A stretch of 52,615 nt of DNA, from NCBI GenBank assembly GCA_024398875.1, contig JAKSIJ010000017.1, positions 1-52,615 of the forward strand, written 5' to 3'. The translations under genes and the position numbers were made by a program. The stretch comes from Fibrobacter sp. (GTDB taxonomy: Bacteria; Fibrobacterota; Fibrobacteria; Fibrobacterales; Fibrobacteraceae). Below are positions 40,413 to 41,372 of the stretch, piece by piece. The notes under the pieces were generated by a model, which worked only from the letters and a program-made list of their open reading frames with translations, made no database searches and was not told the origin of the DNA. How positions within the stretch are numbered: the stretch's first letter is position 1; each line of letters starts with the position of its first letter.

Positions 40413-41372
40413 ATGTCTGGGAAAATCCGCTTTGCTCCAAGCCCCACCGGCTACCTTCACGAAGGCCACCTGCTTTCGGCGCTTTACGTGTGGGCCGCAG
40501 CCGCAAAATGGGATTTAAAAATTCACCTCCGCATTGAAGATCACGATAGAAGTAGGGCCCGAGAGGAATACATCACAGGCATCAAAGAGGATTTAGATTG
40601 GTTTGGATTCCACTACGATTCGGAAAGCATCCAGCGGGACCACGAAGAAGCCTACCAAGCAGCTCTACAAAAACTAGAAGCCGCACATCTTGTGTATCCC
40701 TGCTATTGCAGCCGCAAGCAGTTGGAAGCGGAAAATCCGAAAAGTGAAACCGGAGAAATCATTTATCAGGGGAAGTGCCGAGGGCAATTCACAATTCAAA
40801 ATTCACAATTTAAAATTGGGGCCGCGGGCTCTTCGCAATTCACAATTCAAAATTCACAATTTAAAATTGAAACCGCGGGCAATAACATTCCAGACATCAT
40901 CGCTCCCCACAATCTCCGGTTTAAGGTTACAGACAAAGTAATTCACTGGAACGATTTGCGCTTAGGCTCCTTCAACGAAAATCCGAAACTGCAATGTGGG
41001 GACTTTCCCATCCGGGATCGGGACGGTCAATGGACCTACCAGTTCGCCGTTTGCGTAGACGACATCAACGAGAGCATCACCCACATCGTCCGCGGCGAAG
41101 ACATCCGAAACTCCACCGCACGGCAAATCATGCTCATGCAAACCCTCGGGCGGGATGTCCCTCCCCTATACCTCCACCACCCCCTCATCAGTGATTCCAG
41201 TGGGAAAAAACTGTCAAAACGTGAGCTAGCTCACAGTCTCTGTCAAGACCGCGCCGCAGGCACCACGCCCGAGGAACTTCTCGGACGGGTATGCTACAAG
41301 GCAGGATTTGCAAGTGACGCTTCTCCGCTCCCTTTAAAACAGGCACTTTCCTTAATTCAAAAGAAATTGTAA
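40413..41372 (+). CDS. gluQ: Glutamyl-Q tRNA(Asp) synthetase with in-frame repeat insertions
   Basis: This 319-residue class I synthetase lacks an anticodon domain. HIGH is APSPTGYLHEGHL (7-19), zinc ligands sit in YPCYCSRK and KCRG, and the KMSKS-type loop is KKLSKREL. It glutamylates queuosine on tRNA-Asp. Immediately after KCRG there are two copies of an AT-rich 34-bp unit (40785-40818 and 40836-40869) that add about 34 residues (QFTIQNSQFKI twice) in frame. Relatives are about 290-300 residues, so the insertion accounts for the extra length. AAGGA precedes the start at 40413. Whether activity survives is not known. Confidence 0.92.
   Translation: MSGKIRFAPSPTGYLHEGHLLSALYVWAAAAKWDLKIHLRIEDHDRSRAREEYITGIKEDLDWFGFHYDSESIQRDHEEAYQAALQKLEAAHLVYPCYCSRKQLEAENPKSETGEIIYQGKCRGQFTIQNSQFKIGAAGSSQFTIQNSQFKIETAGNNIPDIIAPHNLRFKVTDKVIHWNDLRLGSFNENPKLQCGDFPIRDRDGQWTYQFAVCVDDINESITHIVRGEDIRNSTARQIMLMQTLGRDVPPLYLHHPLISDSSGKKLSKRELAHSLCQDRAAGTTPEELLGRVCYKAGFASDASPLPLKQALSLIQKKL
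40785..40869 (+). repeat. Tandem 34-bp AT-rich repeat inserted in gluQ
   Basis: CAATTCACAATTCAAAATTC and the following 14 bases occur identically at 40785-40818 and 40836-40869 (offset 51 bp, 17 codons), each followed by a GC-rich CCGCGGG block. Similar AATTCACAATTC motifs are frequent in noncoding repeats of other bacteria. Confidence 0.85.

Follow-up and report, generated by a model that had tools for sequence, protein, structure and literature searches.

GluQRS of Fibrobacter carries, directly behind its last putative zinc-binding cysteine, a loop in which unrelated repeat families accumulate throughout the genus. In the window (the whole stretch of Fibrobacter sp. DNA analysed here, 52,615 nucleotides) the gluQ gene for this glutamyl-Q tRNA(Asp) synthetase contains two copies of a heptamer array that is present in frame and is of a kind dispersed through the genome; the loop has turned over at this one site throughout the genus, its repeats are associated with the repeat content of the remaining genome, and like inserts occur in other genes. 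The best explanation, to which we give a probability of roughly 0.8, is that dispersed repeats come and go in a disordered protein loop, tolerated as long as they pass the filter of the reading frame. Rickettsia and Wolbachia are the best-known cases of selfish-looking repeats put to in-frame use in proteins, and gluQ shows junk-like DNA becoming protein sequence in the gut genus Fibrobacter. With dozens of species in which one loop has passed through several repeat families, the route of entry, the tolerance of the protein and the birth of peptide segments become testable. No paper on repeats in Fibrobacter genes or on this GluQRS loop was found in the open-licence literature, which is weak evidence for unpublished status.

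Identity of the gluQ product

The gene runs from an ATG at 40413 to 41372 on the forward strand and encodes 319 residues. TIGR03838 is the best NCBIfam match (236.1 bits, E 4.5e-70), and this GluQRS model is preferred over the GluRS model (gltX_bact, 191 bits); the protein is of the short form without an anticodon domain, Pfam tRNA-synt_1c is found in it, and the E. coli GluQRS structures 1nzj and 4a91 are among its PDB matches. The curated TIGR03838 cut-off of 276.7 is not reached; three relatives with short loops score 243-259, likewise under the cut-off, and the insert is therefore not the sole cause of the low score.

The segment C97-x-C99 ... Y118 ... C122 (40701..40778, forward strand) forms a putative zinc site: these four residues, putative zinc ligands by analogy with E. 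coli GluQRS, are invariant in 20 aligned Fibrobacter proteins, and the codon of C122 occupies 40776-40778. The core residues of a class I synthetase are intact, and in the same 20 sequences the zinc-type cysteines and the HIGH-like and KMSKS-like motifs are invariant or nearly so. Two full-length TGT-family genes are present in the same genome (G000:C12:19386-20462 and G000:C56:114279-115352). Judged by sequence, the window gene is a member of the GluQRS family with a predicted role in Q-glutamylation, and the enzyme would stay active with the insert. Far upstream in the window, at 62-276, TRF reports a separate tandem repeat of 78 bp in 2.8 copies.

The repeat insert in the window

The hypervariable loop lies between C122 and P165 (residues 123-164; 40779..40904, forward strand) and measures 42 residues, as against 8-9 in the shortest relatives. 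Sequence inspection and a genome pattern search place in it two identical AATTCNN-type arrays on the forward strand, each of four heptamers plus 5 nt and 33 bp long (40786..40818 and 40837..40869), the first beginning 7 nt past the codon of C122; the insert starts two codons after this residue. TRF describes the same region as a 51-bp tandem unit in 1.9 copies (40784..40880, forward strand), made up of the array and a spacer ending in CCGCGGGC, with a score of 173, and gives 57 to each of the 14-bp (2 x heptamer) arrays. The extended copies, 40784-40829 and 40835-40880, are 46 nt long, 93% identical and 51 bp apart from start to start; their identical core is the first 35 nt (40784-40818 and 40835-40869), and the initial annotation, which had described identical 34-bp units at this distance, was right to within a base. 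It had also put some 34 added residues after a zinc-type cysteine with both units in frame; relative to the shortest loops the excess is approximately 33 residues, and both units share the single open frame of gluQ, read as QFTIQNSQFKI-(6 aa)-QFTIQNSQFKI.

In an AlphaFold2 model built from the gluQ alignment (mean pLDDT 79), the only run of at least three residues with pLDDT below 50 is 123-161, the insert; in this predicted model the loop is disordered. Some sites look like CRISPR repeats and spacers, a reading that was rejected on inspection, since their spacers resemble one another and the arrays are built of heptamers.

An assembly artefact is unlikely, as a second assembly (G027) carries the insert with differences of its own and L031 (‘Horse_feces19’) has the same loop peptide; the loops of other Fibrobacter species also recur across several assemblies. 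For annotators, repeat-like stretches in conserved Fibrobacter genes can be genuine inserts and not assembly errors. The insert is not common to all relatives, as an anciently fixed insertion might have been: only G027, the closest relative found (95% protein identity), shares it, and other species have different loops. On the preferred reading, a dispersed AATTCNN array of four heptamers and about 5 nt would have gone to fixation, in frame, in the disordered loop behind the zinc site, and a tandem duplication of the 51-bp unit would have followed before the lineages of the window genome (G000) and its sister G027 separated.

Diversity of the loop across Fibrobacter

Of 80 Fibrobacter genomes searched, 77 have a complete gluQ; none was recovered in G006 and G023, and that of G078 is cut by a contig end. 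With the loop delimited by the motifs YxGxC and P[HY]x[LT]R, the shortest has 8 residues and the longest 58 (median 16; 15 or more in 42 of the 77 genes), and the rest of GluQRS hardly varies in length: in 74 of the 77 genes YxGxC keeps one and the same residue number. The loops contain arrays of at least four heptamer families, GAGACGA (H1), CGAGGYK (H2), GAAGTCG (H3) and AATTCNN (H4), and several non-periodic, hairpin-type repeats. By labels given by eye and not blind, 41 of the 77 loops are repeat-like (H1 13, H2 3, H3 3, H4 5, other repeats 17) and the remaining 36 either short or unassigned, the short partial cases L050, L053, L026 and L062 being weak. The initial annotation missed this hotspot: the case is broader than a single insertion, the gluQ loop being variable across the genus and populated by several repeat families.

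In 19 of the 21 loci with a detected heptamer array, and across four families, the first array starts at nucleotide 370-375 of the coding sequence (378 and 380 in the others), and the heptamers have the same orientation in all 21, with none reversed. H1-H3 are without stops on both strands, yet their orientation in gluQ is uniform. Outside Fibrobacter, 14 gluQ-like genes of the same family and order were read by eye: 12 have a short loop and two lack the zinc segment. The enlarged, hypervariable loop after the last zinc-type cysteine of GluQRS (YadB) is a feature of Fibrobacter that was found in none of the sister genera examined.

A quick tree of the 77 gluQ sequences with the loop excised (74 inner branches, 36 starred, 19 open) calls for at least 25 changes of loop class; H1 by itself changes 12 times, H4 four times and the non-periodic repeats nine times. 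Closely related species may carry other repeats in the loop, or none. Which family a loop carries is associated with what the genome holds: with the gluQ copy removed, a family is denser in the rest of the genome where gluQ carries that family, with AUC values, obtained from rounded genome sizes and the by-eye labels, of 0.83-0.92 for five families (H1 0.85, H2 0.92, H3 0.83, H4 0.83, R3 0.84). For H1 the median density is 8.6 per Mb in genomes with this family in gluQ versus 1.6 per Mb in those without. The H3 pattern is present in four of the 80 genomes, three of which have H3 in gluQ. There are counter-examples: in G072 gluQ is the only place with H3, in G050 and G037 the family assigned to the loop is almost absent from the genome, and G057 is at background. 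Tree-corrected independent pairs for H1 number 3.2 for and 0.5 against (median p 0.375), too few for significance, and for H2, H3, H4 and R3 the pairs were likewise too few.

On the preferred reading, the Fibrobacter loop would repeatedly have gained, replaced and lost whichever dispersed repeats abounded in the genome, and would accept any in-frame hydrophilic sequence. The process would be mostly neutral, with selection probably filtering only for frame and a hydrophilic reading.

Dispersal of the repeat families

The unit is not restricted to gluQ; such a restriction would have spoken against the initial annotation. With up to three mismatches allowed, the 33-mer has 12 matches in its own genome, two in gluQ and ten elsewhere, as compared with none for the reversed control, and the matches are therefore not due to chance. 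A looser AATTCNN pattern, AATTCNNAATTCNNAATTCNNAATT, has 54 matches in the window's genome and 42 in G027, the top two of the 80 Fibrobacter genomes in which the family patterns were counted; reversed controls gave none except for one match in G006. Most H4 sites examined in the own genome are intergenic or at the edges of open reading frames, with some inside genes, which bears out the earlier view of a repeat that has entered a gene. Many of the intergenic AATTCNN arrays in this genome (L098-L103, L117) are followed by a GC-rich inverted repeat of about 25 nt and further AATTCAT heptamers, as if the arrays were a portion of a larger composite element.

Array length is nearly constant: 17 of the 30 H4 arrays measure 32-33 bp and 16 of the 26 H1 arrays 30-31 bp. 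The modal number of heptamers is four in both, all of these counts coming from search patterns that left out arrays below about three units. Expansion in place by slipped-strand events in a low-complexity loop, with the likeness to genome repeats arising by convergence, would be in keeping with some non-coding arrays that differ by exactly one heptamer between the sister genomes. The near-constant array length disfavours pure slippage, the genomes concerned have further, scattered copies of the families in their loops, and non-periodic hairpin repeats share the loop; we regard this origin as very improbable. The arrays more probably spread by copying.

Copying of the REP type, in which a RAYT or IS200-type (Y1) transposase mobilises repeats into genes, seems to us barely credible. 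A Y1_Tnp match is present in 27 of the 80 genomes, the window's own having one partial copy (profile positions 3-93 of 121); several repeat-rich genomes (among them G007, G018, G054, G067, G069 and G075) are without a match, although their incompleteness may hide a copy, and heptamer arrays are direct repeats, not palindromes. As a general mover, such a transposase is unsupported.

In-frame repeats in other genes

Like inserts were found in further proteins of the window's genome. In a CobA-HemD fusion (L104:2000-3727, contig C8) an H4 array splits the CobA match into two stretches; others lie in the linker that joins CbiX to a precorrin-2-dehydrogenase domain, in frame in the C-terminal tail of HisS (the tail being shorter in G027), and in the protein of locus L113. 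This last protein (L113:1414-2247, L125:1605-2714, L126:1817-2587 and L160:1721-2752) has no Pfam match in the copies scanned. From its sequences, the linker of the L113-type protein appears to be a second hotspot like that of gluQ, with different dispersed repeats in different species.

Outside gluQ, four H3 loci were retrieved from G067 and G075, a set that left out two loci of G018 and one further locus of G075; all four lie in open reading frames, one of them UvrA-like, one RlmL-like and two orthologous to the gene of the L113 protein. The RlmL-like gene (L124:952-2511, G067) has several repeat-like inserts beside its H3 array. Of 26 H1 sites picked from the listed places in G007 (20) and G008 (6), eight are in Pfam-supported proteins (RsmG, a helicase, GrpE, a glycosyltransferase, YidC, LigA, an EF-G-like protein and a SNF2 helicase), with the placement in grpE and yidC, where the array is N-terminal to the matched domain, depending on a correct start codon; one is in an L113-type protein (L160), and several others are ambiguous, in or near the starts of open reading frames.

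Comparison of the own genome with G027 shows how such arrays change. CobA-HemD has three units of 17 residues versus two in G027 (L196), and the L113 protein three versus five. These two genes share the 17-residue period of the 51-bp unit of gluQ, and their unit number shifts in multiples of 51 bp. Among the non-coding arrays, two show a difference of a single 7-bp heptamer between the two genomes. With 7-bp changes outside genes and 51-bp multiples in two genes, the reading frame would act as a filter on changes in array length, a conclusion drawn from few cases. The initial annotation had supposed that the repeat entered and expanded within gluQ, possibly as an ongoing process: entry and in-frame duplication hold good, and a change in unit number, absent from gluQ itself (two units in each genome), is seen in the two other genes. 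No target-site duplications were evident in these comparisons and a clean empty site was not found; the loops look replaced rather than simply inserted.

Hairpin-type loops and the 107-bp element

Heptamer loops and hairpin-type loops behave in opposite ways. The loops of G000 and G027 are identical at 107 of 123 nt and are less conserved than their flanks (96.8%), whereas several pairs of species share non-periodic loops that are closer than the gene around them: 116 of 117 nt versus 84% in the flanks for G054 and G069, 90 of 90 versus 79% for G009 and G053, 60 of 60 versus 91.5% for G070 and G064, and 63 of 63 versus 92.7% for G008 and G001. G064 has G019 as its sister in the tree, and the loop of G019 is a different one. 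In the 3.9-kb pair from G054 and G069 the longest exact match is 122 nt and spans the loop, the next being 32; the corresponding figures for G009 and G053 are 98 and 43, and in both pairs the exact match extends at most 6 nt beyond either edge of the loop. Loop identity of 99-100% at a flank identity of 79-84%, in two species pairs, is outside what plain neutral drift predicts. The shared non-periodic loops suggest either constraint on the element or an exchange specific to the locus.

Under the latter reading the loop would be a cassette site, its DNA passing between species as a unit by loop-limited recombination or a homing-like insertion. The near-identical loops of G054/G069, G009/G053 and G070/G064 despite diverged flanks speak for it, as do the different loop of G019 and the roughly 30 matching nucleotides of G009 and G053 that fall outside the dispersed part. 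The inner parts of the L007, L011 and L065 loops are themselves dispersed repeats, of about 107, 57 and 40 bp, but gluQ copies match one another best, the element of the L007 loop at 100% compared with 96-97% for the best copy outside gluQ. For the 107-bp element, five other groups of orthologous loci allow a comparison with the mean of the two flanks, and the element is the more conserved (0.89-1.00) in nine of nine pairs, not all independent, which speaks for slow change of the element and not of gluQ; the opposite behaviour of the heptamer loops also counts against a cassette, and we know of no enzyme or target site for such an exchange. We hold it to be unlikely, though conceivable, and would extend no greater credit to its fuller form, in which the zinc-side loop of Fibrobacter GluQRS is a landing and exchange site, whole repeat-made loops are swapped between species independently of the gene flanks, and similar sites exist in other proteins. 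If true, this would be natural loop shuffling in an ordinary metabolic enzyme. The orthologous sites of the element are L202/L206, L204/L208/L209, L210/L217, L211/L219/L220 and L201/L218.

A function of the hairpin-type repeats as DNA or RNA elements under constraint, such as mRNA structures or binding sites, which would be maintained both within and between genes with the peptide as a by-product, would fit the slow change of the 107-bp element at orthologous sites and the folding of the L007 and L011 loops, which is better than that of shuffled sequences (z -3.6 and -3.0). The one H1 heptamer loop tested is without RNA structure (z +2.5), which speaks against this cause for H1 loops, and the change of repeats between close species argues against constraint in gluQ; we consider such a function quite improbable, and tolerated turnover remains the preferred explanation.

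Comparison with known repeat systems

The Rickettsia palindromic elements (RPEs) are described, in the portion of the source drawn on here, as lying in open reading frames without breaking the frame and at solvent-exposed positions; for RPE-4, RPE-6 and RPE-7 some orthologues bear an RPE of another group close by, the possibility of hotspots is taken up, and in R. japonica the genes with RPEs and the positions are conserved in spotted fever group genomes (PMC3767692). To the extent of that account, the Fibrobacter repeats resemble the palindromic elements of Rickettsia and Wolbachia in being dispersed, in lying within many genes and in keeping the frame. They differ in kind: RPEs are palindromic and 100-150 bp long, the repeats of Fibrobacter are direct heptamer arrays of 30-33 bp (33 bp in the window) and other small repeats, and among the Fibrobacter repeats only the 107-bp element, from other species, comes near the RPE size. 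Unlike RPEs as there described, several unrelated-looking families occupy in turn the same codon position of one gene.

In heterocyst-forming cyanobacteria, STRRs reportedly occur within the RNase P RNA gene. Direct heptamer arrays dispersed across the genome, as in Fibrobacter, are of the STRR type. Those studied in Nostoc and Xanthomonas are, in the sections consulted, G-rich and G4-forming, dispersed, mostly of four units in Xanthomonas, and intergenic for 68% of the Nostoc set and 89-93% in Xanthomonas, with a minority intragenic (PMC4692102). The Fibrobacter arrays share the dispersal and the prevalence of four units; they differ from what is reported there in being AT-rich or GA-rich, in lying in frame in housekeeping enzymes, and in alternating with hairpin repeats at one site. 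Going by these comparisons, the presence of several families at one site appears to set Fibrobacter apart from both RPEs and STRRs.

The RU/MITE-like repeats of enterobacteria, of about 100-170 bp, can be intragenic and can encode peptides, according to the part of the source used (PMC2759123). Within that limit, the 107-bp element of L007 and L013 is similar to them in size and the heptamer arrays are not, the sequences and the host being different.
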